DNA of 30,796 nucleotides. Source: a virus. Position numbers and translations under genes: made by a program. Shown here piece by piece: positions 14,451 through 30,753 of the stretch (positions are counted from its first letter, which is position 1; every line of letters begins with the position of its first letter). Location: the IMG/VR virus record IMGVR_UViG_3300013286_000036, positions 1 through 30,796 of that record, one strand, 5' to 3'. The notes beneath the pieces were generated by a model that ran no database searches, was not told the DNA's origin, and saw only the letters and a program-made list of their open reading frames with translations.

Positions 14451-15907
14451 TATAGATCTGCCCTTGGTTTCAGCACTTTACTTATGGACTGGCGCTGAGC
14501 TTCTCGTGTGCTGTGCAGTTCAATGAAGTATTGACCTGTGTAAGGTACCGTTTGTTGTATTGAGTTAATTATTGGTAGGGTAATTTTTATGGCTTGATAA
14601 GTGGCCCCACTAAGGGTGTTGGTATAACTGAAGCTTGTTATCAATCCAGGATATTCCGACTGAACATAATCCACTATAATGCTGTCGATCTTGAGCACCA
14701 CATAGGGCTGTGAATGAAATGCATGATAATCAATATCAGTGTAAATCACACTGTCACCCGCTGTGAGATTTTTAGATGCACTAACCTCTGGGTCCACATA
14801 GGTCCAGTTATTGTTGTTGATAAATCCAGTTTTTAGTGTGCTTCTTGAATTGTTATTGGTCATGTTCATTCTCAGACTGTCCTCTACTGCCACCCATGCA
14901 TTTTGACCTGAACTGTAACGAAACAGCCGGTTGGGAAGAAAATCGGATCGTAAAAAATAATCATTATTTTGTGGGCTAGCGGGAAACTGTATGCCGAAAC
15001 CAAAGTCATAACCATTAACGGGAAATCCATCACCTAGCAAATAACCTGTGTATCCGCTTCTTTGGGCCACTGCATTTTCAGTGGATGCATTTCTGTTGCT
15101 GCTTGCATCTATATTCACTTCGTCTGCGGTTTCCAGCAAAGGCTCGCCATTAGTAGGATCCACTGCCAGGGTGTAAAACTGCCGAGTTTCATAGCCACTT
15201 TTGGGGGCATCACTTTCAGCCTGCGCAATCAACTGTTGGTTAATTGCAATTTCTTTATTATAGGTGCTGAGTAGATCTTTCAAAGTAGTTCCGCCACCAG
15301 CTGGGTCTCCATTAGCGTCCTTAGCGGCCTGACCAAAGATGCTGGCAAATTGTTGACTGTCCGTGACCCGTTTAAGTTTAAGTCTATACAAGTGGGGATA
15401 CCAAGTTACTGAAAATCCTTCAGAAGCACGACCCACATCTTCTATCACATAATATCGAGGCAAAGAAAAATCTTTGTCGTTGAGGGCAAAGTCGTCCCTC
15501 AGATGCGGCAACTCTATCACATCGCCACTGATGGGTTTACGGCCAATGTAGGAGATAAAATTGTTGATATGCACAGTCATGTACAGGGTGTCATTGTCAA
15601 TGAATAATCCAAACTGACTGAGATTGAAGTCAATGTTTTGCACATTGTACATGCCTCTAATTCTGTAGATTTCCGTATCGTAGCTTCTATCACGATTTTC
15701 TAAAAACAAAAGATCCTGTATGTTTGTCACTGCCGTAGAGGCATAATTAGGCTGATCAGCTGAGGCATTGGCCTGCTGGGTGTTGGCTCCAAGGTATTTG
15801 TGTAGGTACACATCAGTGCCCCCAACTTGGAACATCTCGCTGGCCTGTCGATCTATGAATTTATAGTCGTTGCCTTTTTCCGGTTTGTAGAGAGATAAGC
15901 GTGGCAT
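14450..15907 (-). CDS. 14: gp14-like neck protein
   Basis: I chose the start at 15907 (MPRLSLYKPEKGNDYKF, 485 aa) rather than the open frame's earlier ATG at 16072. The earlier one would overlap gp13, and a late promoter lies directly before 15907. The core (MYNVQNIDFNLSQFGLFIDN..., then SGDVIELPHLRDDFALNDKDFSLPRYYVIEDVGRA and YPHLYRLKLKRV) has the pattern of T4 gp14 (GDLIYFPMDNSLFEINWVE...FYQL). gp14 joins gp13 in the neck that closes the head after packaging. It is much longer than T4 gp14 (256 aa): residues about 220-485 are additional. The assignment rests on this motif pattern and on adjacency to gp13 and gp15. Box-to-ATG spacing is only 4 nt with no Shine-Dalgarno. Confidence 0.7.
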   Translation of the reverse strand: MPRLSLYKPEKGNDYKFIDRQASEMFQVGGTDVYLHKYLGANTQQANASADQPNYASTAVTNIQDLLFLENRDRSYDTEIYRIRGMYNVQNIDFNLSQFGLFIDNDTLYMTVHINNFISYIGRKPISGDVIELPHLRDDFALNDKDFSLPRYYVIEDVGRASEGFSVTWYPHLYRLKLKRVTDSQQFASIFGQAAKDANGDPAGGGTTLKDLLSTYNKEIAINQQLIAQAESDAPKSGYETRQFYTLAVDPTNGEPLLETADEVNIDASSNRNASTENAVAQRSGYTGYLLGDGFPVNGYDFGFGIQFPASPQNNDYFLRSDFLPNRLFRYSSGQNAWVAVEDSLRMNMTNNNSRSTLKTGFINNNNWTYVDPEVSASKNLTAGDSVIYTDIDYHAFHSQPYVVLKIDSIIVDYVQSEYPGLITSFSYTNTLSGATYQAIKITLPIINSIQQTVPYTGQYFIELHSTREAQRQSISKVLKPRADL

Positions 15908-15911
15908 ATGA

Positions 15912-15919
15912 TATTTATC
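15912..15919 (-). promoter_or_regulatory. Late promoter for gp14 operon, minus strand (GATAAATA)
   Basis: The minus strand reads GATAAATA, then TCAT, then the ATG at 15907. There is no room for a ribosome-binding site between the expected transcription start and the ATG. The core is 8 bp from the divergent plus-strand box. Confidence 0.7.
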
Positions 15920-15923
15920 GATA

Positions 15924-15931
15924 GCTAAATA
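15924..15931 (+). promoter_or_regulatory. Late promoter for gp13 (GCTAAATA)
   Basis: GCTAAATA lies 18 nt before the gp13 ATG at 15950, with AGAGGAA in the leader. It is back to back with the minus-strand box. Confidence 0.7.
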
Positions 15932-15949
15932 TGTAAGAGGAACTAATTT

Positions 15950-16741
15950 ATGGCTGAAGATCAAGCACCCAGTACCCAATCCAACAGCACCATTGAGCGT
16001 AACAAAGTTTTCGACTATGTGAAGCTCATGCTGGGCGATGGTATGGTAGAAGTTGAGCTGGATCCTAAACACTATGAAGAAGCATTGAATAGAGCTCTCA
16101 ATAGGTACAGACAGCGCAGTCCCAACAGCGTGGAAGAAAGTTACTTGTTCCTAGAACTAGTACAGGATCAAAATGAATACAGATTACCTGATGAAGTTAT
16201 CACAGTGCGTGAGGTATTTCGTAGAGCTATTGGCTCAAGAAGTGGTATTGGTGCGGGCGGTACTTTATTTGAACCGTTTAATCTAGCATACACAAATACC
16301 TATCTCATGAGTGGCAGCATGATGGGCGGTTTGGCCACATATGACTTTTTCGCTGGCTATCAAAAACTAGTGGGACGCATGTTTGGTAGTTATATTGAAT
16401 ATGCGTGGAAACCCACCAGCCATATCTTAACAATTCTCCAGCGCCCGTTTGCTCAAGGAGAACAAATCTTGGTTCGCAGCTACAACTTCCGCCCGGACTG
16501 GGTGCTGTTGCAGGACATTTATGCCAAACAATGGCTCAAGGATTACACACTGGCAACTTGCAAGGAAATGCTGGGTGAGGCTAGAAGCAAATTTGCTAGC
16601 ATTGCCGGCCCGGGCAGTGGTGGCATGCAATTGAACGGCGCTGCATTGAAAACCGAAGCCAAAGACATGTTTGAAAAGTTGGACAAAGAAATTGAACTAA
16701 GCATGGCAGGCGGAAACGGATTGACTTTTGTAATCGGCTAA
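15950..16741 (+). CDS. 13: gp13-like neck protein
   Basis: This 263-aa protein resembles gp13 neck proteins of T4-like phages in length and layout. It has an N-terminal helix (NKVFDYVKLMLGDGMVEVELDPKHYEEALNRALNRYRQRSP) typical of head-completion adaptors, then NEYRLPDEVITVREVFRR, a Gly-rich loop (GSRSGIGAGG), and a C-terminal helical part (YAKQWLKDYTLATCKEMLGEARSKF...GAALKTEAKDMFEKLDKEI). gp13 binds gp14 and closes the portal after DNA packaging. Start: AGAGGAA upstream of the ATG and a late promoter 18 nt upstream. It diverges from its expected partners gp14/gp15, which lie on the other strand. The dNMP kinase follows 60 nt downstream with its own promoter. Confidence 0.8.
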   Translation: MAEDQAPSTQSNSTIERNKVFDYVKLMLGDGMVEVELDPKHYEEALNRALNRYRQRSPNSVEESYLFLELVQDQNEYRLPDEVITVREVFRRAIGSRSGIGAGGTLFEPFNLAYTNTYLMSGSMMGGLATYDFFAGYQKLVGRMFGSYIEYAWKPTSHILTILQRPFAQGEQILVRSYNFRPDWVLLQDIYAKQWLKDYTLATCKEMLGEARSKFASIAGPGSGGMQLNGAALKTEAKDMFEKLDKEIELSMAGGNGLTFVIG

Positions 16742-16749
16742 TAAACTTC

Positions 16750-16778
16750 TTGATTCTGTATAGAAACTGTTATATACT
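16750..16778 (+). promoter_or_regulatory. Sigma70-like promoter before the dNMP kinase
   Basis: TTGATT, 17 nt, TATACT fits the host vegetative promoter pattern, with TATACT 23 nt before the ATG. ACTGT at 16766-16770 and ACAGT at 16780-16784 form an inverted repeat around the -10 box, a possible operator. The box differs from the TAAATA type used by the neighbouring structural genes. Confidence 0.5.
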
Positions 16779-16801
16779 GACAGTACTTTACGGGGTTTCT
16801 T

Positions 16802-17443
16802 ATGATTATTGGCATATGCGGGTTTATTGGTTCGGGCAAAGACACCATTGCGGACTATCTAACAAATTTCCATGGATACAGACGAGAAAGTTTTGCTAAT
16901 AGCTTAAAAGATGCGGTGTCTGGCGTGTTTGGCTGGGACCGAACCATGCTGGAAGGGCGCACAAAAAGTGCTCGAGAATGGCGTGAACAAGTGGATCCAT
17001 GGTGGGCGGAACGCTTGAGCATGCCGCAGTTGACTCCGCGCTGGGTGTTGCAATACTGGGGAACTGAAGTATGTCGCAAGGCATTTCACGACGATATCTG
17101 GATTGCCAGCTTGGAAAACAAACTGCGTAACAGCACTGATGACATTGTGATCAGCGACTGCCGCTTTCCCAACGAAATCAAGTCAATTAGAAATGCTGGC
17201 GGAATTGTTATTCGTGTGGTGCGCGGTTCAGAGCCTGAATGGTATCAAGTGGCACACTATGCAAATCAAGGCGTAGAAATGTTTATGGAAAAATTATCAA
17301 GCTATGGCATTCACGCCAGCGAAACTGCATGGGTGGGCACTGAATTTGATCATGTGCTGGACAACAACGAAACCATAGACGACCTTTACAATCAAATACA
17401 CAGCCTTATAAATCTGGAACCAAGTCACCTTGCCGCCATTTGA
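16802..17443 (+). CDS. 1: Deoxynucleoside monophosphate kinase (gp1-like)
   Basis: A P-loop at residues 7-14 (GFIGSGKD) opens the protein, followed by LQYWGTEVCRKAFHDDIW and VISDCRFPNE, both characteristic of phage dNMP kinases such as T4 gp1. The enzyme phosphorylates dNMPs to dNDPs in the cytoplasm, feeding phage DNA synthesis and restoring hydroxymethylated or recycled nucleotides in T4. At 213 aa it is close to T4's 241. A GGGG stretch 6 nt before the ATG is a weak ribosome site. The sigma70-like promoter suggests early or middle expression, although both flanks are late structural genes. The 3' end overlaps the convergent HNH gene by 38 nt. Confidence 0.9.
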   Translation: MIIGICGFIGSGKDTIADYLTNFHGYRRESFANSLKDAVSGVFGWDRTMLEGRTKSAREWREQVDPWWAERLSMPQLTPRWVLQYWGTEVCRKAFHDDIWIASLENKLRNSTDDIVISDCRFPNEIKSIRNAGGIVIRVVRGSEPEWYQVAHYANQGVEMFMEKLSSYGIHASETAWVGTEFDHVLDNNETIDDLYNQIHSLINLEPSHLAAI

Positions 17444-17741
17444 TCCCATCCTTGTGCAGAATTTTTGAGCAATTGGCACACACAGTTTTTAGATTGGCAT
17501 TTCTACAGTTATTGAGATCACCATCCACGTGAAATACGGTGAACACTTCGGGGTGACTGCTTTTGTAACCACATTTGTCACAACTGGATTTGCAAATGTA
17601 ACCCATACGCATCCATCTAGGTATGCCATGATCAGCCCCATGTTTTAGGCAAATGTTACATGCGCCTCTATAGAAAACTTGGTCAGATTTTTTGTAGTTG
17701 ATGGCTCGCGGTCTCATACCGCATTTACACAAAGGTCTCAT
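17406..17741 (-). CDS. HNH endonuclease, zinc-binding
   Basis: 111 aa from the ATG at 17741, chosen over the one at 17756 because a late-promoter box lies 4 nt upstream of 17741. Eight cysteines form two zinc-knuckle groups: C5/C7 with C28/C31, and C54/C57 with C88/C91. The HNH core is H71-V-D-G-D...N77...N83-L, followed by VCANC. The overall pattern (GIPRW, CDKCGYKSSHPEVF, NLKTVCANC) matches small HNH proteins I recall from T4-like marine phages. It may act as a free-standing homing-type nuclease or in DNA processing. It is oriented against both neighbours and overlaps the kinase 3' end by 38 nt, which fits late insertion or a mobile gene. Confidence 0.8.
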   Translation of the reverse strand: MRPLCKCGMRPRAINYKKSDQVFYRGACNICLKHGADHGIPRWMRMGYICKSSCDKCGYKSSHPEVFTVFHVDGDLNNCRNANLKTVCANCSKILHKDGIKWRQGDLVPDL

Positions 17742-17745
17742 ATGA

Positions 17746-17753
17746 TATTTAAG
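17746..17753 (-). promoter_or_regulatory. Late promoter for the HNH gene, minus strand (CTTAAATA)
   Basis: The minus strand reads CTTAAATA, TCAT, ATG. The 13-nt string TAAATATCATATG is identical to that at the gp14 start. No Shine-Dalgarno is present. Confidence 0.6.
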
Positions 17754-17815
17754 CAAGCCAGGCCTTTTTGCGACCTTTTCGTCGAGGTCATATTCAGCTC
17801 ATTTATTCAAATTGC

Positions 17816-17823
17816 CATAAATA
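17816..17823 (+). promoter_or_regulatory. Late promoter for tail sheath (CATAAATA)
   Basis: CATAAATA is followed by a 33-nt stretch to the sheath ATG at 17857, which contains GGAG 8 nt before the start. This is a conventional late promoter with a normal leader. Confidence 0.75.
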
Positions 17824-17856
17824 CATACAAGAACATGTAATCATGGAGATAACACA

Positions 17857-20800
17857 ATGGCTCAACTAAGTTCACCAGGCGTAAGCGTAACAGTAATCGA
17901 CGAGAGTTTTTACACTCCTGCCGCACCAGGCACAGTCCCTCTCATCATTGTAGCATCGGAAGAAAGCAAATTGAACAGTGCCAAAACTGGCATTGCCAAA
18001 GGCACACTTAAAGCAAATGCAGGCACTGTGTACCTGTTGACCAGTCAATCGGATCTAGGGGCTACTTTTGGTATTCCATATTTTCAAACTGATGCCAGCA
18101 ACAATCCAGTCCATGGTGGCGAATTGAACGAATATGGATTACAGGCTGCCTACAGCTTTTTAGGTGTGAGTAATAGAGCCTATGTGGTTCGCGCTGACAT
18201 CAACACAAGGCAGCTGATAGGATCAGCACAGATCCCACACGGTTATCCAGCAGATGGCACATTGTGGTGGGACATAGCGGACTCTGCATTTGGTGTGTTT
18301 GAATGGCAAGGTGGCAGTGCAAGTGTTGCCGGCAATCAAGCATTCAGTGTGCAAACAGTGCATCGAATTCAGGGCTCTGACTCCACTTATAATCGCTCCA
18401 CATTAGCTCCACTGCCCAGTTATGGCATGCTAGGCGACTATGCTATCGTGGCAGTACAAGGAACCGATGGCAACAATAGCAGTCAGCTGTGGATGAAAAA
18501 ATACAACACAGCTGGATCAGGCACTCCTAGTAATGCCGGCACATGGGTAGAGGTAGGCAGTAATGCTTGGACAATGAGTTGGCCAGCAGTGTCAGCCGTG
18601 ACCACAGTGACTGGTTATGGCTCACCAATTAATGCAACGGGTGATATCACTGTTGTGGGCTATGTAGCCAGTGGCACAATAACTTTGCGTTCAATAGTGG
18701 GCGGTAGTTTGACAACTGGCATGGCCTTCACAGACGGGGCGGATAATTTTACTCTTGGCACTGGAGTTGCAGGCAGTGTTGGAGTTCTCACCGCCAGCAC
18801 CACATATGGTCAGCCTGGCGGCATCGCAAATGCCAAGGCTCCCAATGGCACCCACACTGGCCTAGCTCAATCTGCCACAACTGGTAGCGGTACAGGTGCA
18901 GTGTTCAGTATCACAGTTAATGGTACAGCCCCAAGCACCTACCTGGTTGGTACCAATGTTATTATCACAATGACCACTCCAGGCACAGGATATTTCAGCG
19001 GTGATCAAATAACCATTTCAGGTATTGCACTGGGAGGCAGCTCACCAACCAATGACCTTTCGTTCTTATTGGGCGGACAGATACAGTCAGTATACAATGT
19101 AACCAACCCCAGTCCAGCCACTATTGGGTCATCTGGCAGCCCAAAGTCATTTGTGCATGCCGGTGATATAGCTGACATATATACCATTAATGGTTATAAG
19201 ATAGTGGGTGTTTCATCAGCTGACAATGTGGTCGCGGCCATAAATGCTCAGTTTAACGGACACATAGAGGCTAGCAATAACAACGGTCTCATACGGCTTT
19301 ATCTAGACGGCTCACCAGGCTACACCAGTGTGACACTGACTGGTTACACCAGTTTTTCACTTGTTGAATCATGGCACAAATTGGGTGTGATACCTGGCAC
19401 CTACTATGCTCCGCAGTTGACACTAAGCTCTCATACCCAGGTGCCTATTTATGCGTCTGCACCAACCGGCAGTTTATGGATCAAAACCACCAGTGTTAAT
19501 CTTGGTGCAAGCTGGGTAATTAAAAAATACACTTCAGCCACACAGTCATTTAATCGCCAAACAGTCAATCTTTACAGCTCGGGTGCAGCAGCCAATGCTG
19601 CTTTGGATCCAGCTGGCGGCGGCATCAATCTCAGCCTCAACAGCACATATGTGGATTTTAATACCACTAACACAGTATTCTCAATAAAGACTCGTGCGGC
19701 AGTTGGGCCAACAACCGCTAACAGTGTACCAGTAACAGCCAGCACACTTAACGCAGGCACTTACACATTCACAGTGCAAGAAAGCACAGCTGGCGCATCA
19801 GCACTTACGGCTAGTACAACAGTGAGTGTTGTAGCCACTGCCGCCACAACTGATGCCACTGTTTTTGTAGTAGCTATCAATACTGCACTGACCAACAGCA
19901 ATATTAGTGCTTCCTTAACTGCAACCAACAGTGTTGTGTTAACACATGCTATAGGTGGTGACATTTACCTTATAGATGTGACCTATCCAGGAATGCACGG
20001 TGCAATCAGCCAACTGTTTGGCGACCAATCCAATGTGTATGATGGCACATCTCTTAATCCTCAATTGGAATACAACATATCATTGTGGCAACCTGCCAAC
20101 AAGAGTACACTGTTCTTTGCACAAAATGATGCACCTAATACTACTCCAGCTGATGGCACATTGTGGTATGACACCAATATTGATGCCGACATCCTGGTTC
20201 ACAATGGATATGCATGGGTGGGTTATCAATACAGCGGAGTTAGTGGACACAGCGTTGGACATCCAAGTCCCTATTACAATGCGGACTCCACGCTGAGTAC
20301 TGACCCGAATGGTCCTTTAATTTCAGCCACCGCACCAACCCAGCAAAGTGACAACACCACATTGGTACATGGCGATTTATGGATCAACACCAGCAATTTA
20401 GAAATGTTCCCAGCCATCAGTCGTTGGAATGGATATACCAAGAAATGGATTGCAATTGATGTCACTGATCACACCACCACTAACGGTATCATATTCCATG
20501 ATGCTAGATGGTCCGGTGATTCCACTGATGATTTTAAATATGTTGAACCAATCACCAAATTGTTAGCTAGTGACTATGTTGATGTTGACTGTCCAGATCC
20601 CGCACTGTATCCCAGAGGAACTCTGTTGTGGAACACCCGCAGAAGCGGATTCAATGTGAAGAAATTTGTGGTAAATTATGTAGATACCACTTCATACAAT
20701 GTGCGTCTGGCCAACGAAAGCCAAAGCATGTACTATCCCAATGCATGGGTAAGCCAAGCAGCCAACACAACTCAAGGCGTGGGACAATTTGGTAGAAAAT

Positions 20801-21738
20801 CGCAAAGAGCTGTGGTATTGCAGGCAGTGAAAGCCTTGATTGAAGGCAATCAACAGATTAGAGACACAGACGGTCGTGGATTCAACTTGATCAGTTGCCC
20901 AGGCTACTTAGAAACACTGAGTGATTTGATTGCGCTCAATACAGACCGTGGCGAATCAGCATTCATAGTAGCCGACACACCAGCCCGCTTGGCACCAGAT
21001 GCCACAAGTCTAAGCAACTGGGCAACCAACGCAGCAGGTGCTGCTGAAGACGGTGACACTGGACTAATTGCAACCAATGCATATGCAGCGGTTTACTATC
21101 CATGGGCATATACCACAGATCTATTGGGCAACAACATTGTGGTACCACCCAGTCACATCATGTTGCGCACAATTGCACTCAGCGACAATGTGAGCTATGT
21201 GTGGTTTGCTCCAGCTGGCGTGCGACGCGGCGGAGTAACCAATGCAGCTTCTGTGGGCTATGTCAGTAGCATAGGTGAATTTGTTCCTGTATCTTTAAAT
21301 CAGGGTCAAAGAGACACCTTAGCCATCAATCATGTGAATCCAATCACATATTTGGCTGGCACAGGACTAGTAGCTTATGGACAATACACAAGACAATTGA
21401 TTGCCAGCAGTTTGGATAGAATAAATGTAGCCCGTTTGGTAATTTATCTACGCCATCAGTTGAATCAGTTGGCAAAACCATTCATCTTTGAACCCAATGA
21501 TCAAATTACCAGAAATGAGATCAAACAGTCAGTGGAAAAACTGCTGTTAGAATTGACAGGACAGCGAGCACTGTATGATTATCTCGTGGTATGTGACACC
21601 AGCAACAACACGCCAGCTCGTATAGACAGAAGCGAATTATGGGTTGACATTGCCATTGAACCAGTCAAGGCAGTGGAGTTTATCTATATTCCAATGCGCC
21701 TTGAGAAGACCGGCGGCATCAAACTATTGGGCAAATAA
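17857..21738 (+). CDS. 18: Tail sheath protein gp18-like, greatly enlarged
   Basis: The N terminus (MAQLSSPGVSVTVIDESFYTP, then GTVPLIIVAS) and the C-terminal 330 residues (GRGFNLISCPGYLE; VYYPWAY; APAGVRRGGVTNA; INPITYLAGTGLVAYGQYT-like; RLVIYLRHQLNQLAKPFIFEPND; and a final IDRSELWVDIAIEPVKAVEFIYIPMRLE) are typical of contractile-tail sheath proteins. The sheath surrounds the tube and contracts to drive it through the host envelope. At 1293 aa it is about twice T4 gp18 (659 aa). The extra middle holds repeated DGTLWxD beads (near residues 133, 541, 769, 841, 930) and a Gly/Thr-rich segment with a PGTGYFSGDQITISG unit like those in the giant structural proteins. The insert presumably projects from the sheath surface. 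It leads an apparent operon with gp19, 13 nt downstream. Confidence 0.93.
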   Translation: MAQLSSPGVSVTVIDESFYTPAAPGTVPLIIVASEESKLNSAKTGIAKGTLKANAGTVYLLTSQSDLGATFGIPYFQTDASNNPVHGGELNEYGLQAAYSFLGVSNRAYVVRADINTRQLIGSAQIPHGYPADGTLWWDIADSAFGVFEWQGGSASVAGNQAFSVQTVHRIQGSDSTYNRSTLAPLPSYGMLGDYAIVAVQGTDGNNSSQLWMKKYNTAGSGTPSNAGTWVEVGSNAWTMSWPAVSAVTTVTGYGSPINATGDITVVGYVASGTITLRSIVGGSLTTGMAFTDGADNFTLGTGVAGSVGVLTASTTYGQPGGIANAKAPNGTHTGLAQSATTGSGTGAVFSITVNGTAPSTYLVGTNVIITMTTPGTGYFSGDQITISGIALGGSSPTNDLSFLLGGQIQSVYNVTNPSPATIGSSGSPKSFVHAGDIADIYTINGYKIVGVSSADNVVAAINAQFNGHIEASNNNGLIRLYLDGSPGYTSVTLTGYTSFSLVESWHKLGVIPGTYYAPQLTLSSHTQVPIYASAPTGSLWIKTTSVNLGASWVIKKYTSATQSFNRQTVNLYSSGAAANAALDPAGGGINLSLNSTYVDFNTTNTVFSIKTRAAVGPTTANSVPVTASTLNAGTYTFTVQESTAGASALTASTTVSVVATAATTDATVFVVAINTALTNSNISASLTATNSVVLTHAIGGDIYLIDVTYPGMHGAISQLFGDQSNVYDGTSLNPQLEYNISLWQPANKSTLFFAQNDAPNTTPADGTLWYDTNIDADILVHNGYAWVGYQYSGVSGHSVGHPSPYYNADSTLSTDPNGPLISATAPTQQSDNTTLVHGDLWINTSNLEMFPAISRWNGYTKKWIAIDVTDHTTTNGIIFHDARWSGDSTDDFKYVEPITKLLASDYVDVDCPDPALYPRGTLLWNTRRSGFNVKKFVVNYVDTTSYNVRLANESQSMYYPNAWVSQAANTTQGVGQFGRKSQRAVVLQAVKALIEGNQQIRDTDGRGFNLISCPGYLETLSDLIALNTDRGESAFIVADTPARLAPDATSLSNWATNAAGAAEDGDTGLIATNAYAAVYYPWAYTTDLLGNNIVVPPSHIMLRTIALSDNVSYVWFAPAGVRRGGVTNAASVGYVSSIGEFVPVSLNQGQRDTLAINHVNPITYLAGTGLVAYGQYTRQLIASSLDRINVARLVIYLRHQLNQLAKPFIFEPNDQITRNEIKQSVEKLLLELTGQRALYDYLVVCDTSNNTPARIDRSELWVDIAIEPVKAVEFIYIPMRLEKTGGIKLLGK

Positions 21739-21751
21739 TTAGGAGATCACC

Positions 21752-22378: not shown

Positions 22379-22381
22379 TTT

Positions 22382-22405
22382 AAAAAGCCACTGAGTGGCT
22401 TTTTT
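22382..22405 (+). terminator. Rho-independent terminator after gp19
   Basis: A 10-bp perfect stem AAAAAGCCAC / GTGGCTTTTT with loop TGA, just after the gp19 stop codon. It separates gp18-gp19 from the next late promoter at 22442. Confidence 0.9.
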
Positions 22406-22441
22406 AATGACTGGTCATAAAGTGCTCACTTAATTCATAAC

Positions 22442-22449
22442 GCTAAATA
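22442..22449 (+). promoter_or_regulatory. Late promoter (GCTAAATA), ATG-proximal
   Basis: GCTAAATA, then 5 nt (TTAGC), then the ATG at 22455. There is no Shine-Dalgarno anywhere in the preceding 40 nt. A T4-type late start should fall on or next to the A of the ATG. Confidence 0.7.
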
Positions 22450-22454
22450 TTAGC

Positions 22455-23711
22455 ATGGCCTTCTCATCCAATTCAAATTTGAAACTCAATCCAGTTGATC
22501 AACTAAATGGTCAACAGGTGGTCATGCGGGATCAACAGCATGCTGCCAAGCTGTTCAATGTGGATCAGTTTAGACTGGCACCCAAGAGTGCATTTTTATT
22601 CCATGTTAGTTTTGCCATAAACACCGCGGCTTTAAAGTCCACAGACCTAGTACAAAAATATGGTCAGGAAATCAACATGCTGGTTAAAAGCTGCGATTTG
22701 CCTGGATTTAGGATAAAGAATGAAATATTGAATCAGTACAATAGAAAAAAGGTAGTGCAGTATGGTCATGACTTCAATGAAATTGGCATGAAGTTTCACG
22801 ACGACAACATGAACCTGGTCAATCAGCTGTGGCAAAATTACTACAGTTATTACTTTGCTGACAGCACTAGTGCAAAAAATCAAGGCGCATATGCCAGGAA
22901 TGCTACCAAGAATGGCAATTTCATAACCACCCCTTACGGTTTTGACAACAGCAGCACACGACCATTTTTTACCAGTATCACCATATACCAGATGGCCAGA
23001 CATGAGTATGCCAGCTACAGATTGATCAATCCCATTGTGATAGCTTGGAGTCACAACCGTGTGGATTATGCTGGCACTCAGCCAAAAGATCTTGACATGA
23101 AATTGCAGTATGAAGCTGTGGTATATGGTCAAGGGCTAGTACGCAACGGCATACCTGAAGGGTTTGGTAACAGTCACTATGACCTTTACCCTAGCCCCTT
23201 GGTAGGACCTAATCCAGATCCCGCAGTGAGCATGCCCAGTTTTGCAACTGGCATTGATACCGGAGCTCTTGCACCGGGTATTTTAGACAATGCACTGCAA
23301 ACTGCACAAAATTATGAAAACAACAGCAATAATGGAACTCCCAATAGCGCAATACTAAACACCATAGGTGGTATTGGTTTAGGAGTAGCAGCCTTTAGTG
23401 CAGGATCTCAGTTGATCGGCAGCCTTGGCGGAATCAGTGGCATTGCCAGTGGCATTGGCAATGTAATAGGCAGTGTTGCATCTGGTATAGGTGATGCAGT
23501 GAGTGGTGTTGTTGATGCGGTGTTTCCAGGGGGCATCCCCAACCCATTTGCTGACCCAGCTGCAGAGCAGATTAAGGCCGATGCAGCTTTACTGAAAGAA
23601 GTGGATCCAGATAACTTGTTTAACAATCCTGATCCATATGGAGGTGACAATTTAAGTGCTGCCGCTAGTGGCTTTGGCACCAGCAACGACCTAAATGATT
23701 TTTATGGATAA
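22455..23711 (+). CDS. Tail-tube-related structural protein, possible baseplate/tube junction protein
   Basis: 418 aa. Residues about 45-230 resemble the tube-protein superfamily: AFLFHVSFAINT, MLVKSCDLPGFRIKNEILNQYNRKKVVQYG, an IGMKFHDDN-NLVNQLWQNYY strand-helix, and PIVIAWSHNRVDYAG. The C-terminal part is different: a Pro/Asn linker, then a Gly/Ala/Ile-rich hydrophobic stretch (about residues 298-360, with GGIGLGVAAF, GSLGGISGIASGIGNVIGSV), then an acidic tail. T4 gp54, which starts the tube on the baseplate, also ends in a Gly/Ser-rich hydrophobic segment, so a gp54/gp48-like role is a reasonable guess. Position right after gp18-gp19 supports a tail role. The exact homologue is not settled. 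Confidence 0.55.
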   Translation: MAFSSNSNLKLNPVDQLNGQQVVMRDQQHAAKLFNVDQFRLAPKSAFLFHVSFAINTAALKSTDLVQKYGQEINMLVKSCDLPGFRIKNEILNQYNRKKVVQYGHDFNEIGMKFHDDNMNLVNQLWQNYYSYYFADSTSAKNQGAYARNATKNGNFITTPYGFDNSSTRPFFTSITIYQMARHEYASYRLINPIVIAWSHNRVDYAGTQPKDLDMKLQYEAVVYGQGLVRNGIPEGFGNSHYDLYPSPLVGPNPDPAVSMPSFATGIDTGALAPGILDNALQTAQNYENNSNNGTPNSAILNTIGGIGLGVAAFSAGSQLIGSLGGISGIASGIGNVIGSVASGIGDAVSGVVDAVFPGGIPNPFADPAAEQIKADAALLKEVDPDNLFNNPDPYGGDNLSAAASGFGTSNDLNDFYG

Positions 23712-23713
23712 AA

Positions 23714-24079: not shown

Positions 24080-24085
24080 TTTTAC

Positions 24086-24514: not shown

Positions 24515-24528
24515 GCATAAGTAATAGT

Positions 24529-25005
24529 ATGACCAAAAAATTAGAAGAGATTTTAAACCTGCCTGAAAGCAAAAAAATTATGAAGCATGAAGAAAAAATT
24601 CAAGCTCGAGAAGTTGCAGCGCCTCTTTTGAGAGACATCACGGAGTTTGACAAAATCAGTGCAGCATTGCCCCAGGTCACAGGATTGGGTGATGTGGGTG
24701 ATGGCGAGCTGGATGAATTGGCGCAAAAAGCCAAAGATGCATATGAGGATATCATGGATCTGGGCATGAATGTTGAAGCTAGATACAGTGGTAGATTGTT
24801 TGAAGTTGCGGCCAGTATGCTGGGTCATGCTATCCAAGCCAAAACAGCCAAACTGGATAAAAAACTAAAAATGATTGATCTACAGCTGAAAAAACAAAAA
24901 ATTGATCAGGATGCAAACACAGACGACAGTGTGACCTTGCAGGGGGATGGCGTGATTATCACAGATAGGAACAGCCTGTTAGAAAAACTCAAGCAAATTA
25001 AATAA
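24529..25005 (+). CDS. 16: Terminase small subunit gp16-like
   Basis: 158 aa, close to T4 gp16 (164). The central coiled-coil part has the family pattern: DELAQKAKDAYEDIMDLGMNVEARYSGRLFEVAASMLGHAIQAKTAKLDKKLKMIDLQLKKQKID (residues about 62-126), preceded by an acidic segment. The C-terminal SVTLQGDGVIITDRNSLLEKL recalls the T4 region where VFMGSPTELMDEI occurs. gp16 oligomers recognise phage DNA and regulate the gp17 motor. There is no clear Shine-Dalgarno before the ATG, which is 14 nt after gp4. The stop codon TAA overlaps the TAAATA box of the next gene. In T4 gp17 follows directly; here three genes intervene. Confidence 0.8.
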   Translation: MTKKLEEILNLPESKKIMKHEEKIQAREVAAPLLRDITEFDKISAALPQVTGLGDVGDGELDELAQKAKDAYEDIMDLGMNVEARYSGRLFEVAASMLGHAIQAKTAKLDKKLKMIDLQLKKQKIDQDANTDDSVTLQGDGVIITDRNSLLEKLKQIK

Positions 25006-25008
25006 ATA
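25001..25008 (+). promoter_or_regulatory. Late promoter overlapping the gp16 stop codon (AATAAATA)
   Basis: AATAAATA overlaps the TAA stop of gp16 (25003-25005). A 17-nt interval containing AGGA leads to the ATG at 25026, so the expected leader is short but carries a ribosome site. Confidence 0.65.
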
Positions 25009-25025
25009 CTACACCAGGACCGCAT

Positions 25026-25652
25026 ATGAAATCATTCAAACAATATCTTACCGAAAGCACCAAAGTCTACGAGTTCAAGATCAAGATCTGTGGCACTTGC
25101 CCCAAAGATTGTAAAAAACAAATCGAATCAGCACTTGGCACCTACAAGCTAGAAAGTTGTAGTGCTGGCAAGAGCATGCCCATACAAGAACATTACCAAG
25201 ATTTTCCAGAGCAAAAAAATCAGCCCATGACTGTGTTTGATGTTTGTGTACATTATCCAACAACCAGTCTCATGATTCGTGACAAAGTATCAGAAGCTTT
25301 GGGCATATCACATGGCTCCATAGCCGTAGTGAGTCCAGCAGACGAGCGTGAGCATGCAATTAACCATGCACATGACCATGCCACTTCTACTGCCATGATT
25401 GGCACAGATTACGAGCCCAGTGATAATTCACATCTGTATGGTGAAAAATATGTGATGAATTTCCTCAAAGAACTTGCTAGCGAAAAGAAAACAGGTCACG
25501 AAATTGATAACATCAATAAACAACTGTTTCCTACAACTGGCATGAACAAAACACAAGCTCAACAGCCTATTGCACAAAAGAAGGCCAGCCACAGTCCGGT
25601 GCCTAATCGACAACAATACAAAGTCGCACCAGCCATGGGAGCAAGACAATGA
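25026..25652 (+). CDS. Putative internal head protein with capsid-targeting N terminus
   Basis: 208 aa. The N terminus MKSFKQYLTES closely matches the capsid-targeting sequence of T4 internal proteins (MKTYQEFIAEA in IPI-IPIII), including an L-x-E site for the gp21-type prohead protease (after E10). The following domain (VYEFKIKICGTCPKDCKKQIESAL, PIQEHYQDFP, FDVCVHYPTTSLMIRDKVSEAL) looks like a small alpha/beta fold with five Cys (22, 25, 29, 45, 74). A His-rich stretch lies at about residues 107-120 (EREHAINHAHDHATS), then a basic Gln/Lys/Pro-rich tail. I infer packaging into the prohead core, cleavage, and possibly ejection with DNA. The 3' end overlaps the next gene by ATGA. AGGA lies 6 nt before the ATG. 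Confidence 0.65.
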   Translation: MKSFKQYLTESTKVYEFKIKICGTCPKDCKKQIESALGTYKLESCSAGKSMPIQEHYQDFPEQKNQPMTVFDVCVHYPTTSLMIRDKVSEALGISHGSIAVVSPADEREHAINHAHDHATSTAMIGTDYEPSDNSHLYGEKYVMNFLKELASEKKTGHEIDNINKQLFPTTGMNKTQAQQPIAQKKASHSPVPNRQQYKVAPAMGARQ

Positions 25653-26440
25653 ATTTGAAAGAATTAATAGCCAAGATGACAGCGATAGAAGAAGGCGCTC
25701 CTGTGGCTCCTACTCACACTGATGCACCGGCCGATCAAGAAGGCATCATAATCGGAAGTCCCATGGGAGCAATGATGGGTCATTCTGAGGCACCGCACCA
25801 GCAAGACAATGTAACGATGAGCGTGAACCTCAATGGGCAAGGCACAGGTGGTGTTAGAGATCTAATGAACATCTTGAAAGATATTGAGCAATCGTCTGAC
25901 CATGATCAGGATGACCGCATGCAGGACATGCTGTTTGGTGCAGAAGAAAAACAAATGTACGACGGTTATGAAAATAGTCAGCATGGTCATGACGGAGCGA
26001 CTACATTTGGCATAGACAGCATAACTCACCATGGAGATGACATGCACAAAGGCAGTGCCAAAGAACCGCATAAAAAACACGGTGGCGGCAATCCCTATAA
26101 GGAATCCCTGGAAGCCCGTTTGTCACGCATGTATCAAGAAATCAAAGAAGCCGCAAAGCCAACACCGTTTGATAAATCTCAATACGACGGCGATAGAGAA
26201 GAGCCAGCTGGTAGTAAATCAAAACCAACACCAAAGGGCGAACTAGGAAAAACATTGCGTAAACGATTAGGTGAGCCTGAAAAGAAAGTTAACGAAGCTG
26301 ACCGCACCATGAGTCGTGCAGCCAAAGGCTATGAGAAGTACGGTAAAAAAGGTATGACAGCTTTAGCCAAAGCAGGTCGCGAAGGCAAAGATTTGGACAA
26401 GGTCAGAGACAAATTTAACAAATACAAGGATAAATCATGA
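25649..26440 (+). CDS. Putative prohead core / internal protein, His-rich
   Basis: 263 aa, highly charged and low in hydrophobics. It begins MNLKELIAKMTAIEEGAP, an amphipathic helix ending in I-E-E/G, which fits the I/L-x-E rule of T4 prohead protease sites. Residues about 83-144 are rich in His and Asp (SDHDQDD, SQHGHDGA, THHGDDMHK, HKKHGGG). The C-terminal 50 residues (EADRTMSRAAKGYEKYGKKGMTALAKAGREGKDLDKVRDKF) form a strongly basic helical region that I recall from other marine T4-like phages. It may bind DNA. The start overlaps the previous gene by ATGA with GGAG upstream. The function is inferred from composition, N terminus and neighbours. Confidence 0.6.
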   Translation: MNLKELIAKMTAIEEGAPVAPTHTDAPADQEGIIIGSPMGAMMGHSEAPHQQDNVTMSVNLNGQGTGGVRDLMNILKDIEQSSDHDQDDRMQDMLFGAEEKQMYDGYENSQHGHDGATTFGIDSITHHGDDMHKGSAKEPHKKHGGGNPYKESLEARLSRMYQEIKEAAKPTPFDKSQYDGDREEPAGSKSKPTPKGELGKTLRKRLGEPEKKVNEADRTMSRAAKGYEKYGKKGMTALAKAGREGKDLDKVRDKFNKYKDKS

Positions 26441-26805
26441 ATGCTCAAGAATACAGAACTTTAGTCAACAAACTTGAAAAGATATCAGAAGACCCCATGG
26501 ACATGGTGCCAGATGATATCACAATGAACACGGGTCAGCCCTTGCCAGTGACACAGACTGCTCCTTCTCCTGAAATCCCCACAATTGAAGCACCCACTTT
26601 CAAACAGGCATATGCCCAAGCAGTAAAACAAAAATTAAAAAAATTCAAATGGTGCGGCACTTTTGCAGTTAAAGCAGCAAGCACATCGGCACCTAAACCC
26701 GCAGTATCTGATCCTAAAGTTGACTATGTAGGACAAGAAAATCCCCTGGGCGGCACCATGAAAAATCCAATGAGTTACACTTCCAACAGCAATTTTGGCG
26801 CATAA
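26437..26805 (+). CDS. Small putative core / internal protein (122 aa)
   Basis: Not recognised as a named family. The ATG overlaps the previous stop (ATGA), with AAGGA upstream. The N terminus MNAQEYRTLVNKLEKISEDP is an amphipathic helix ending in I-S-E, parallel to the two preceding proteins. A Pro/Thr-rich acidic linker follows, then a basic patch (AVKQKLKKFKWCGTFAVK, residues about 62-80) with an aromatic-Trp-Cys-Gly motif, and a polar disordered tail. The third member of a coupled cassette between terminase subunits, it ends at a strong terminator. Most likely a minor prohead or scaffold component. Confidence 0.6.
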   Translation: MNAQEYRTLVNKLEKISEDPMDMVPDDITMNTGQPLPVTQTAPSPEIPTIEAPTFKQAYAQAVKQKLKKFKWCGTFAVKAASTSAPKPAVSDPKVDYVGQENPLGGTMKNPMSYTSNSNFGA

Positions 26806-26841
26806 AAATTTCGTCGCAGTTAGCACCCTGCCCAAGGTGCC

Positions 26842-26869
26842 AAATAGCTCCTCCGGGAGCTATTTTTTT
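26842..26869 (+). terminator. Rho-independent terminator before gp17
   Basis: A 10-bp stem AAATAGCTCC / GGAGCTATTT with a TCCG loop and a T-run. A small hairpin GCACC...GGTGC (26823-26840) precedes it. The terminator ends 3 nt before the next late-promoter core. Confidence 0.9.
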
Positions 26870-26870
26870 A

Positions 26871-26878
26871 AGTAAATA
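26871..26878 (+). promoter_or_regulatory. Late promoter for gp17 (AGTAAATA), ATG-proximal
   Basis: AGTAAATA, then CTAT, then the ATG at 26883. No Shine-Dalgarno is present, because the preceding bases are the terminator's T-run. Confidence 0.7.
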
Positions 26879-26882
26879 CTAT

Positions 26883-28484
26883 ATGGCCAAGAGTCTCGAC
26901 GGCGTTCTAACAAAAAAAGCGCATACCAAAGAAAAATTCACTGAACAGCAAGTGGATAACTTGTTGCAATGCATGACTCCCACGGATGGATATTTGCATT
27001 TTGCTAAGAATTTTTTCTTTATACAGCACCCAGTCAAGGGCAAAATGAAGTTTGAGCCATATGATTATCAAGTGAGGCTGTTACAGGCCTATCATGATCA
27101 TAGATTCAACATCAATATGTTGCCTAGGCAAAGTGGTAAGACCACATGTGCCAGTGCCTACTTACTGTGGTTTGCCATGTTCCACCCTGATCAAACTATA
27201 CTTGTGGCCGCGCACAAGTATACTGGTAGTCAGGAAATAATGCAACGCATACGCTACGGCTATGAATTGTGTCCCGACTACATACGCAGTGGTGTGGTCA
27301 ATTACAACAAAGGGAGTATTGAATTTGACAACGGATCAAGAATTGTATCAGCTACTACTACTGGTAACACCGGTCGTGGCATGTCCATATCCTTACTCTA
27401 TTGCGATGAGTTTGCTTTCGTACAACCTAACATCGCTACTGAATTTTGGACATCGATATCGCCAACACTAGCAACTGGTGGCAGGGCTATCATTACCTCA
27501 ACACCCAACAGTGATGAAGACGAATTTGCCATTATCTGGAAAGAAAGTCAAGACAAGTTTGATGCACACGGCAATGAGCGCACAGACGGAAAAGGCCGCA
27601 ATGGCTTTCATGGATTCAGAGCTGAATGGTACGAGCACCCGGATCGAGATGATGCTTGGAAAACAGTTGAAGAAGGCAGAATTGGCATTGAACGATTTCG
27701 TAGAGAGTATGGTTGTGAATTTCTTATCTATGATGAAACTCTCATCAGTAGCATCAAGCTGGTAGACATGGTGGGCAGAGAGCCCGTGTGGAAAATGGGT
27801 CAAGTGCGATGGTGGCGCAAACCTCAACCAGGCAAGATATACCTTGTGGCCTTAGATCCCAGTTTGGGTACTGGCGGTGACTATGGAGCAATACAAGTGT
27901 TTGAAATGCCGACCATGGTGCAAGTGGCAGAATGGCAACACAACATAACACCCATACAGCAACAGGTCAAAATCTTGCGCGACATACTGAAATATATAGC
28001 AGATGAGCTGGGTGGGGAAAGCTTCAATCAGATCTATTGGAGTGTGGAAAACAACACTGTGGGCGAAAGTGCTTTAGTAGTTATTGAAAATCTTGGCGAA
28101 GAAACTTTTCCTGGCATGTTCATGAGCGAGCCAGGACGCAAGGGACATGTTAAAAAATTCCGCAAAGGATTCAACACCACTTTTGGCACCAAGATTGCCA
28201 CATGTGCCAAGGTAAAATTTCTTGTGGAAGAAGAAAAAATGCTGTTGAACAGCAGACCCATGATAAGTGAGCTTAAAACCTATATTGCCAAAGGCACCAG
28301 TTTTGGTGCCAAAGAAGGACAACACGATGACTTGGTGGCTGCCCTATTGCTGGTAGTGCGCATGAGCATTGTGCTGGCCGAATGGGATCCGGCTGTATTT
28401 GAACATCTAAAGGTAACCAGCGAATGGATATCCGACGACAGTTTTGAACCGCCCTTGCCCATATTCATATCGTCGGGCTTTTGA
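26883..28484 (+). CDS. 17: Terminase large subunit gp17
   Basis: 533 aa with both motor and nuclease domains. Walker A PRQSGKT at 81-87, Walker B LLYCDE at 171-176 with the catalytic Glu, and the coupling motif TSTPN at 205-209. The RNase H-like nuclease has D325 (ALDPS), E389 (VENN) and D482/D483 (HDDLVAALL), corresponding to T4 D401, E458 and D542. It pumps DNA into the prohead through the portal and cuts the concatemer. It is shorter than T4 gp17 (610 aa), mainly at the N terminus. The ATG at 26883 is just after a late-promoter box and lacks a Shine-Dalgarno; no in-frame upstream start is needed. Confidence 0.97.
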   Translation: MAKSLDGVLTKKAHTKEKFTEQQVDNLLQCMTPTDGYLHFAKNFFFIQHPVKGKMKFEPYDYQVRLLQAYHDHRFNINMLPRQSGKTTCASAYLLWFAMFHPDQTILVAAHKYTGSQEIMQRIRYGYELCPDYIRSGVVNYNKGSIEFDNGSRIVSATTTGNTGRGMSISLLYCDEFAFVQPNIATEFWTSISPTLATGGRAIITSTPNSDEDEFAIIWKESQDKFDAHGNERTDGKGRNGFHGFRAEWYEHPDRDDAWKTVEEGRIGIERFRREYGCEFLIYDETLISSIKLVDMVGREPVWKMGQVRWWRKPQPGKIYLVALDPSLGTGGDYGAIQVFEMPTMVQVAEWQHNITPIQQQVKILRDILKYIADELGGESFNQIYWSVENNTVGESALVVIENLGEETFPGMFMSEPGRKGHVKKFRKGFNTTFGTKIATCAKVKFLVEEEKMLLNSRPMISELKTYIAKGTSFGAKEGQHDDLVAALLLVVRMSIVLAEWDPAVFEHLKVTSEWISDDSFEPPLPIFISSGF

Positions 28485-28490
28485 TAAATA
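28483..28490 (+). promoter_or_regulatory. Late promoter overlapping the gp17 stop (GATAAATA), ATG-proximal
   Basis: GATAAATA overlaps the gp17 TGA stop (28482-28484), followed by CACC and the ATG at 28495. No Shine-Dalgarno is present. Confidence 0.65.
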
Positions 28491-28494
28491 CACC

Positions 28495-30753
28495 ATGAAT
28501 ACTAATTTGGATAGAATTGCTCTTGACCTTTATGGCAAACTGGAAACACGCTTCTCCAGCATAAAGATGGGTGACGAAGAAGCCAAAGTGCTCAGCAAGA
28601 AAAGTGAAATTCCCCAGGCAAGATTTTTTGAATTTGACTATCAACACAACGGGAAAAATCTTGGCACAGTGACCATTACCTTGGATGAAGATGATGGCGT
28701 GATTGTGCAAATTGGTGGCGACATTAGTGATAGCAAACACCACAGCGTGTTCAAATTTCTGCGTAGTTTGCGAAATTTTGCCAAGGATAGGCTGTTGAAT
28801 TTTGACGTCAAGAGTATAGGAAAAAATCAGCTAGACAAACGAGATTATGAATTTCAAGCAAAACCCAAGGAAACCCCTGCTATGTCCAACTCGCCCATAA
28901 TGGAAAACAAACTATACGGTACAGGTCGTATGAGCTATCAAGATCTAGGCGAAGCAAGATTGATCATCAAACACAGTCAACCTATAAACCCAGAATTGGC
29001 CGCTGGCCGCACCATGCACATTGAAGGCATATGGGTGGAAAATGCTCAAGGCGAGCGTTTTAAATTTCCCTTCAAGCATCTCAACGGTGCAAGAGCTGTG
29101 GCTGAGCACATGAAGCACGGAGGCAACCTGTACGATGACATTGGTCAACATATTTGTGGTCTTTCAGAAGAATTGGCACAATTGAGAAAATTCAAAGGCT
29201 ATGTTAGTCGTAACAGCACTCTTAGTGAGGCCATGGGCGATATCACACACAAGGTTTTGGAACGCATTGAACAGATCAAGAAAGAAGTAACTGGTCTTCA
29301 GCGCCCTGCCTACTATGCGCAATTTGCTGAATCATTCAACAGTAAAGAAGAGCAGATCATTCCTGAAGACATCATGAGCGATTGGATTGATAGGTTAACA
29401 ATCCGCACATTCAATGAAGACCTAAAAACAGCATTCCCATACATTTTCCGTTTAGTTGGAGAAGGTGATATACCAGTAAAAGAATTGTCAGCAGGTGATT
29501 TACTGGATGAAGCTGGTGCTGGTGCCCAACGGGCTGCAATAGCCATTGCCAAGAAAAAATCCGGAAAATATGACAAAGACGGCAAACGCTTGAAAGAAAC
29601 TCCTGAAGATCAATTTGAAGCAGCTATCAATCGCATAATGAGCGAAGATGAAAACGACCTGGGAAGCAATTCAATCATGAGTCCCAACAAAGCCACGCAA
29701 GTGGATGCAATTGACAAACTTAACGCAATTTTACAAACGGAATTAAAGGGCGGCCCGGATGGCATTAATGCCATACAGAGTCTCAAAGGACTCATAGATG
29801 ATCCTGAATTTTTGGACAGTATCAAAGACATAGACCCTGATCTTGACACGCGACCACTGATACAACAGTATCTCACGCAGAGCGTGCCTGAGATTGTGGC
29901 GCAACTACATTTTGGCGGCACAGATGCTGGTGAAATAGGTGGTGCAAACGCCCAGCCAGCTGACGCAACGCCTGGACAAAATGATCCCAGTTCGAAAAAT
30001 TATACCAATCAAATGGATCAAGCCAGCGATGCTGTTGGCGCTGCGCCAGCGACTGGTGCCGCTTTGCCCCCTGCACCTGATGCCACTTTGCCCCCTGCAC
30101 CTGATGCAACTTTGCCCCCTGCACCCCCAGTGGCAGAAGGCAGTGATCATGAGCCTCCTTTTGATGCTCCATACAGCAAGTCTAAAGGCGATGTAACAGA
30201 CAAAAGCGGTGCAAAACATACTGGACACAGTCATGCCAAACATTTAGCCAAATCAGGCATGATCAAGGCCATTCACAAGGCCAAAGCGGCAGGTGCTAAA
30301 TTGGATACCAAATTGGATTTTGGGAATCGAGAAATGACACTGCATGACTGTATAGAAGAGTGCGGCATGAGTGCGAGCGATTTTGGTTACAAAGAAGCAC
30401 ACCAAAGTGGCATTGAACAGATGCTAAAAGACATTGCTGGTTTTTGGAATCACGAAGCCAAGAATTTCACAATAGGCGGCACACGGGCCAAGACCAAAAT
30501 CGTAAAAGCCTACAAGAACGGTGAATTTTCTCATGCTACAGACGATGACCTTCACAAGGTGTTGGCACTGATAGACAAGATGGACCCCAGCGGAGATAGC
30601 AATCCTGAATTACATCACATTAGGCGATCTGCAGGCATGCATACACACGAACATTCTACGAATGAAATGCAATCGCAGATAAATACCAAATCAAACATGC
30701 ATGAGTCACAAGAGCTGACAGCCATGTTGAAAATAGCAGGACTTAGAAAATGA
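28495..30753 (+). CDS. Conserved T4-like phage protein of unknown function (752 aa)
   Basis: Start taken at 28495 (MNTNLDRIALDLYGKLETRF), not the in-frame ATG at 28444 inside gp17, because the family-like N terminus and the promoter box are here. Residues about 1-370 appear well structured (ARFFEFDYQHNGKNLGTVTITLDEDDGVIVQ; GEARLIIKHSQPINPELAAGRTMHIEGIWVEN; MSDWIDRLTIRTFNEDLKTAFPYIFRLV) and resemble a protein I recall beside terminase genes in marine T4-like phages; its role is unknown to me. After an Ala/Lys-rich helix come a disordered linker, an ALPPAPDATLPPAPDATL repeat (about residues 523-544), a His-rich section and a C-terminal helical domain (TLHDCIEECGMSASDFGYKE). It is probably a virion or packaging-associated protein. 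The stop overlaps the next start (ATGA). Confidence 0.65.
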   Translation: MNTNLDRIALDLYGKLETRFSSIKMGDEEAKVLSKKSEIPQARFFEFDYQHNGKNLGTVTITLDEDDGVIVQIGGDISDSKHHSVFKFLRSLRNFAKDRLLNFDVKSIGKNQLDKRDYEFQAKPKETPAMSNSPIMENKLYGTGRMSYQDLGEARLIIKHSQPINPELAAGRTMHIEGIWVENAQGERFKFPFKHLNGARAVAEHMKHGGNLYDDIGQHICGLSEELAQLRKFKGYVSRNSTLSEAMGDITHKVLERIEQIKKEVTGLQRPAYYAQFAESFNSKEEQIIPEDIMSDWIDRLTIRTFNEDLKTAFPYIFRLVGEGDIPVKELSAGDLLDEAGAGAQRAAIAIAKKKSGKYDKDGKRLKETPEDQFEAAINRIMSEDENDLGSNSIMSPNKATQVDAIDKLNAILQTELKGGPDGINAIQSLKGLIDDPEFLDSIKDIDPDLDTRPLIQQYLTQSVPEIVAQLHFGGTDAGEIGGANAQPADATPGQNDPSSKNYTNQMDQASDAVGAAPATGAALPPAPDATLPPAPDATLPPAPPVAEGSDHEPPFDAPYSKSKGDVTDKSGAKHTGHSHAKHLAKSGMIKAIHKAKAAGAKLDTKLDFGNREMTLHDCIEECGMSASDFGYKEAHQSGIEQMLKDIAGFWNHEAKNFTIGGTRAKTKIVKAYKNGEFSHATDDDLHKVLALIDKMDPSGDSNPELHHIRRSAGMHTHEHSTNEMQSQINTKSNMHESQELTAMLKIAGLRK
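30061..30126 (+). repeat. 24-bp in-frame tandem repeat (2.75 copies)
   Basis: Units start at 30061, 30085 and 30109 (partial). Each is close to xCTTTGCCCCCTGCACCTGA plus TGCC/A and encodes (A/T)LPPAPDA. Units differ at only a few bases, so this is a recent expansion. It forms a Pro/Ala linker in the 752-aa protein. Confidence 0.9.
30678..30685 (+). promoter_or_regulatory. Possible late promoter for the next gene (GATAAATA)
   Basis: GATAAATA inside the 3' end of the 752-aa gene, 64 nt before the ATG at 30750. Identical to the box before the 752-aa gene, but intragenic and distant, so weak. Confidence 0.3.

Follow-up and report, generated by a model that had tools for sequence, protein, structure and literature searches.

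Leaderless late mRNAs in a phage have their nearest reported precedent in Thermus phage phiYS40, whose middle and late transcripts lack a leader (described in a portion of PMC3594737). Leaderless mRNAs of the lambda cI type also carry their AUG at or near the 5' end and have no Shine-Dalgarno (SD) sequence, and in E. coli such mRNAs favour AUG (PMC9031893, excerpt from section 4). The late promoters of phage T4 (gp55/gp33/gp45; TATAAATA) place a TAAATA core at structural and packaging genes, but the T4 box is usually followed by an SD leader. We describe here the late genes of a 30.8-kb stretch of viral DNA, IMG/VR record IMGVR_UViG_3300013286_000036 (30,796 nt; the window), in which the same TAAATA core stands almost directly before five start codons and where, to judge from sequence, late promoters are very probably placed for a start at the AUG, so that predicted leaderless mRNAs occur beside late genes with SD leaders. 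The likeness to phiYS40, another phage with another host, concerns its published description; in the window leaderlessness is confined to some late genes, which stand among SD-led ones, and it goes with a T4-type box. Unlike the lambda cI-type mRNAs, a whole phage promoter class is positioned for leaderlessness in the window's clade. In titles and abstract openings we found no description of leaderless late transcripts for T4-type or related jumbo phages. We take the jumbo phage AR9 to be unrelated to this clade. Its leaders are 26-491 nt long (PMC5312081, in part).

Judging from its relatives, the window probably comes from a T4-related jumbo-type myovirus. Its terminase is 49-53% identical to those of PA5oct, Phosso and Atu_ph07, which are among its closest named relatives, and identity is 76-93% in the best 80 of 267 IMG/VR relatives. 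A search of genome_contigs with the terminase large subunit (TerL) for a host gave no relative, and an Rfam scan of the window gave no match.

According to the initial annotation, TAAATA stands 4-5 nt upstream of the ATG at five genes of the window, all of them lacking an SD; re-reading of the sequence bore out both points. The gap is 4 nt at the gp14-like neck/virion structural gene (14450..15907, minus strand, 485 aa; phrog_11591, virion structural protein; box at 15912..15917), at an HNH endonuclease-like gene (17406..17741, minus strand, 111 aa; box at 17746..17751), at the gp17-like TerL gene (26883..28484, plus strand, 533 aa; box at 26873..26878) and at a 752-aa virion structural gene (28495..30753, plus strand), whose box (28485..28490) lies immediately 3' of the TerL stop codon; it is 5 nt at a tail-tube-related gene (22455..23711, plus strand, 418 aa; box at 22444..22449), each box being on the strand of its gene. 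An SD-like run never exceeded 3 bases at these five genes, and their median SD duplex energy was 0.3 kcal/mol, compared with -6.0 for the window's five late boxes at gaps of 16-28 nt. The genes named as a contrast all carry AGGA, GGAG or AAGGAG sites: the gp13-like adaptor gene (15950..16741, plus strand; box at 15926..15931, 18 nt, AGGA), the tail sheath gene (17857..21738, plus strand; box at 17818..17823, 33 nt, GGAG), a 208-aa gene (25026..25652, plus strand) behind tandem boxes TAAATAAATA at 24999..25008 (17/21 nt, AGGA), a 172-aa gene (ATG 11980, plus strand; box at 11955..11960, 19 nt, AAGGAG) and a 1235-aa gene (ATG 11863, minus strand; box at 11886..11891, 22 nt, GGAG).

To place this spacing in a wider set, the window was pooled with nine long contigs picked among those with close terminase relatives (G001-G009), and the gap was taken as the distance from TAAATA to the first ATG opening at least 60 codons, on both strands; the start-picking script favours ATG, and the spacing counts consider ATG alone and no other codon. 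An SD was scored, unless stated otherwise, at a duplex energy of -4 kcal/mol or better. The 647 boxes of the pool fell at gaps of 4 nt (47), 5 nt (34), 6 nt (2), 7 nt (11), 8-15 nt (16) and, as a second class, 16-28 nt (106). The 4-5 nt peak that the initial annotation had proposed to look for thus comprises 81 of 647 boxes against 4.9 expected from 14 same-composition hexamers (Poisson p ~5e-68), a control that is conservative because some of these hexamers overlap TAAATA. SD sites are lost along with it, being present in 8/94 genes at gaps of 4-7 nt, the other 86 pairing more weakly than -4 kcal/mol, vs 77/106 long-gap genes (p 1e-21). The two classes separate cleanly, as had been claimed for the window, and at least four of the 16 cases at 8-15 nt are tandem boxes counted twice. 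A further group at 6-8 nt, in which ACT often immediately precedes the ATG, is consistent with a leader some 3 nt long. When an open reading frame (ORF) was not required, pattern counts separated poorly at gap 5 (9 vs 5 for the reversed pattern in G001; 9 vs 6 in G002). The spacing pattern is real, conserved and far from chance.

The pattern is unevenly distributed across phages. Boxes at gaps of 4-7 nt before an ORF numbered 33/186 in G001 and 13/99 in G002, whereas T4 had 3/225, Syn9 1/132 and PA5oct 3/611, and Atu_ph07 and Phosso had 6/287 and 1/116 (381 kb of each). PA5oct, Atu_ph07 and Phosso have the same late box at gp14, but their gp14 is leadered with an SD. In CBB and RaK2, whole-record pattern counts with no ORF required were below the reversed-pattern control. 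Counts at gap 4-5 in ten further contigs (G010-G019) were equally crude, an ORF not being required and the reversed pattern serving as control: they exceeded the control in G015 (72 vs 7), G011 (12 vs 5), G013 (9 vs 6), G017 (4 vs 1) and G016 (5 vs 3), and were not above it in G010 (14/15, pattern/reversed), G012 (12/16), G014 (9/14), G018 (1/3) and G019 (3/3). With ORFs required, 9/142 boxes of G010 were at gap 4-5, other hexamers giving 0-5 each. In G015, a 517-kb phage contig, 62/318 boxes were at gap 4-5, with an SD in 1/62, and 32 were at 16-30 nt, with an SD in 23.

Gene by gene, each class was kept among relatives; in these rows G001-G009 are the parents of nine loci, hence some records are counted twice. 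The box lies 4-5 nt from the TerL ATG in 76/78 loci, a count that leaves out L036 (match begins inside) and L025 (upstream too short) and includes many near copies, with 45 distinct 52-nt upstream stretches, the window's among them. In the two exceptions, L004 and L005, a reading frame that by eye looks like a homing endonuclease is inserted directly upstream and overlaps the TerL start, and no late box lies within 60 nt. The gap was 4 nt in 85/85 rows of the 752-aa gene, 4-5 nt in 30/30 HNH rows, 4, 5 or 7 nt in 14/15 gp14 rows and 4-5 nt in 47/50 rows of the tube-related gene; of its three misses, two (G002 and L052, the same record) arose where the script picked a wrong start, the true ATG being at gap 5. 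SDs were found in 2/87 TerL rows (L004 and L005 among the 87), 0/50 tube-related rows and 1/15 gp14 rows, the last being the G004 exception described below. The leadered genes were equally constant: gp13 had gaps of 16-18 nt and an SD in 18/18 rows, sheath a gap of 32-37 nt and an SD in 33/33, and the 208-aa gene a gap of 17-19 nt in 70/70, with an SD in 62/70 and pairing of -3 or better in 70/70. Late class is a property of the gene rather than of the phage.

In the sheath leader (17818-17857), ATGTAA at 17835 forms a start-stop mini ORF ahead of the SD, and an ATG near its place is retained in several relatives.

Since AT-rich start regions are common in phages, the hexamer could instead be a translation enhancer or an unstructured spacer rather than a promoter, with mRNAs starting upstream and carrying leaders. 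Same-composition hexamers not overlapping TAAATA, however, give no peak, and immediately upstream of gp14 and of HNH lies a divergently oriented gene. TerL stands directly behind an intrinsic terminator, a hairpin and T-run at 26842..26869 (plus strand) that ends 3 nt before its late box. A perfectly paired hairpin, then T's, then the box within a few bases was present in 35/38 distinct TerL upstream regions, and the stems vary: among twelve strings, some of which overlap as forms of a single stem, about nine are clearly different. As the terminator abuts the TerL box, the box is the sole evident promoter left for TerL. The G015 contig has four divergent leaderless pairs with 21, 22, 26 and 28 bp between ATGs; in the 21-bp pair (L430:16597-16617) the intergenic region consists of two abutting late boxes, TATTTATAAATA. 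With ATGs 21-22 bp apart, any leader would have to extend into the opposite ORF. We therefore regard an enhancer or spacer without promoter function as highly improbable.

Where transcription would begin can be estimated from T4, in which the late box spans -13 to -6 (a statement taken from part of PMC1524935), so that +1 falls five bases after TAAATA. At gap 5 the A of the ATG is exactly at this +1. Among leadered genes, the most frequent base is A at offset 5 in T4 (62% of 21 genes) and at offsets 4-6 in Phosso (58-67% of 43 genes). A pyrimidine precedes the ATG in 74/78 gap-4/5 genes vs 46/74 leadered genes (p 6e-7); this is the usual preference around a start site. Of the 11 genes in the gap-7 group, 82% have A at offset 4, and the gap-8 variant L288 retains ACT directly before the ATG, with A at offset 5; a 3-nt leader is therefore the natural reading for both. 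We propose that these are T4-type late promoters whose position would make gp55-directed RNA polymerase initiate at the A of the start codon; in the gap-7/8 group, initiation would instead fall on the A of ACU-AUG and give a 3-nt leader. The mRNA 5' end would then be the AUG itself, to be translated by leaderless, presumably 70S-type, initiation, and the remaining late genes of the same genomes would retain leader and SD.

Several observations weigh against this proposal. Under the T4 rule, +1 at gap 4 would be the T of the ATG, which calls for an assumed one-base shift to the A. The clade's own leadered genes give a weak start signal at offsets 4-6 (A 36-46%) because the purine-rich SD sequence follows. 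In G015 a pyrimidine precedes 55/62 leaderless ATGs, hardly above its leadered genes (17/23). SDs of -4 or better occur in 9/85 rows of the 752-aa gene and 4/30 HNH rows, and 28/30 HNH rows show weak SD-like pairing of -3 or better; in the rows shown, the SD-like AAGG of HNH would lie outside the predicted mRNA since it is upstream of the box. No AUG-proximal AC enrichment was found beyond that of leadered late genes. The gp55 late sigma factor was not found in G001, G003-G009 or G011, and the window was not searched for it; a gp45 family search matched no record, and no control either.

AC-rich starts were accordingly rejected as an enhancer (leaderless vs leadered late genes, p 0.12 and 0.74), although the clade's leaderless genes exceed its box-less SD genes in start AC content (p 0.001). 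Leaderless promoters of the sigma-70 type at genes with neither SD nor late box were also rejected: with a crude gene caller, TAWNWT at gaps of 4-8 nt preceded 1/37 such genes in G001 and 0/17 in G002.

The starts come from open frames and alignments, and they might be misassigned, with true starts downstream and leadered mRNAs. Over TerL codons 2-12 in 79 sequences, however, six residues are invariant despite codon changes and each of the remaining five shows a single minority residue; this mostly synonymous variation supports the ATG as the true start. The gp14 N-terminus MPRLSLYK is likewise retained from the ATG, with few substitutions, down to about 50% overall identity. Systematic misassignment is hardly credible in view of these data.

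The gp14 gene occurs in both states. In sets of the best 80 matches each, of which 10/80 were skipped in the first and 2/77 in the second, the gap was 4, 5 or 7 nt in 69/70 usable loci of the first set, the remaining one having gap 8, and 4-8 nt in 75/75 of the second, which overlaps the first (19/77 are contigs already in it). A wider set of 135 distinct proteins, without short or incomplete copies and exact duplicates, held 122 short-gap copies (4 nt, 17; 5 nt, 40; 6 nt, 8; 7 nt, 49; 8 nt, 8), 9 leadered copies with an SD and 4 others, three of which proved on re-reading by eye to be leadered with ATT starts. Every short-gap copy starts with ATG (122/122) and none has an SD (0/122). Leadered copies have SDs with ATG, GTG, TTG or ATT starts, and 6/12 of them start with GTG, TTG or ATT (p 1e-7 vs short-gap copies; L400, with no box and no SD, is in neither group). 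Within the leaderless clade, the gp14 of G004 starts with GTG behind an SD, and its box lies at a distance of 41 nt. On a tree of 94 rows built by a quick method, at least 5 state changes lie on well-supported branches. Farther off, gp14 has its box 19-28 nt upstream and an SD of -6.8 to -8.9 in PA5oct, Phosso and Atu_ph07; the SD is -5.9 to -6.4 in Vibrio 2.275.O, Munch, 121Q, RaK2 and CBB, and Salicola SCTP-2 gp14 is without one (-2.2). In the leadered copies L406, L408 and L410, an apparent ATT start, a rare codon, was seen at locus position 1001 behind a strong SD.

The initial proposal of leaderless late mRNAs in two classes, still a prediction, is thus strongly supported by box position and its conservation, SD loss, the pyrimidine excess at base -1, the exclusive use of ATG by short-gap gp14 and the TerL terminator; the true start points of the mRNAs, initiation of the 70S type (by established knowledge of leaderless translation) and the reason for leaderlessness are inferred.

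A late box core of the TATAAATA type is found at late genes of the window and relatives, with its first T not kept in the window clade, as in other T4-like phages (per part of PMC1524935). A gp55 homologue was found in G002, Phosso, Atu_ph07 and PA5oct (4/12 records) and in 6/7 further contigs (G010 and G012-G016). IF1 was found in G001 and Phosso. The ribosomal protein bS21, found in G001, PA5oct, Atu_ph07 and Phosso, was rejected as an explanation, the last three also having it. An array of 28 tRNA genes with a tmRNA candidate was observed in G001 (L090), where one tRNA-Met (7312-7385) has by eye an initiator-like C-U mismatch at 1:72; the lone tRNA-Met in G001 and G002 was rejected by eye as an initiator tRNA, having a normal 1:72 pair.

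The initial annotation had also read the classes as two modes of translation tuned to host or infection stage. Such tuning would agree with phiYS40, for whose leaderless mRNAs an increase in IF2 and a decrease in IF3 are reported (PMC3594737, in part). Phage IF3 was seen solely where a clear leaderless class is missing: in Phosso and Atu_ph07, both with few short-gap boxes, and in G016, whose own low number comes from the crude count alone. It was not found in PA5oct, G001-G009 or G010-G015, most of these records probably being fragments. The contrast comes, however, from few and partly incomplete records. Two kinetic classes are unsupported; within one genome the late box core is common to both classes, and class follows the gene. 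This part of the initial annotation was not upheld, and we judge tuning unlikely.

Even as a genuine trait, leaderlessness could have arisen neutrally through genome compaction, with no role in setting expression. Divergent late genes share 21-60 bp and the TerL promoter abuts a terminator, as compaction would have it. The class is, however, gene-specific and kept over large divergence, and leadered gp14 copies near leaderless ones pair an SD with weak start codons. Gene contents differ as well: among the scanned genes of G001 (25/31 leaderless and 15/24 leadered listed genes), head, tail or connector PHROG labels fell on 0/25 leaderless and 8/15 leadered genes, two of the 8 being weak. The unscanned genes are window orthologues and short or cut ORFs, plus a few leadered ones left out; with window orthologues included, structural labels number 3/30 leaderless (4 if terminase, whose PHROG label is head and packaging, is counted) vs 10/18 leadered. 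A neutral by-product is a possibility that we take seriously without favouring it.

Leaderless gene content therefore leans to low-copy products, which is not a rule: the gp14, 752-aa and tube-related proteins are leaderless yet structural. Our best guess at the reason is that leaderlessness keeps the dose of low-copy virion proteins, of enzymes and perhaps of capsid cargo low or fixed, together with very compact gene spacing; that the PHROG labels come from part of one contig counts against the dosage idea. In G015, N-termini like MRYFEILNE or SNWYRNLVNLIE occur in 25/62 leaderless genes vs 10/280 others by an expression written after viewing the list; the first expression gave 11/62 vs 8/280. 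The motif was significant in G015 alone, and not in G001 (4/31), G002 (3/14) or G010 (2/12).

Apart from these counts, many G015 leaderless genes (L419-L446) were seen to begin with MRYFEILxE or SNWYRNLVNLIE; these N-termini may be capsid-targeting peptides and recall those of T4 internal proteins. The N-terminus of the leadered 208-aa protein, MKSFKQYLTE (25026-25055), presumably resembles such a peptide too.

More tentatively, and with some doubt, the leader might act as a heritable dosage switch, in which a leaderless AUG and a leader with a strong SD and weak start (GUG, UUG or AUU) would be interchangeable routes to the same low output. Leaderlessness might then be the main late mode in some phages, such as that of the 517-kb contig, on proteins with short capsid-targeting-like N-termini, and be incompatible with a phage IF3 gene.

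If the prediction that these late mRNAs are leaderless is true, this clade would offer a large natural set of predicted leaderless phage mRNAs with orthologous genes in both states, and the cost and use of leaderless initiation would become testable by evolution and simple reporters. It should also aid gene-start calling in environmental jumbo phages, because programs that look for an SD may overlook or displace starts of this kind.

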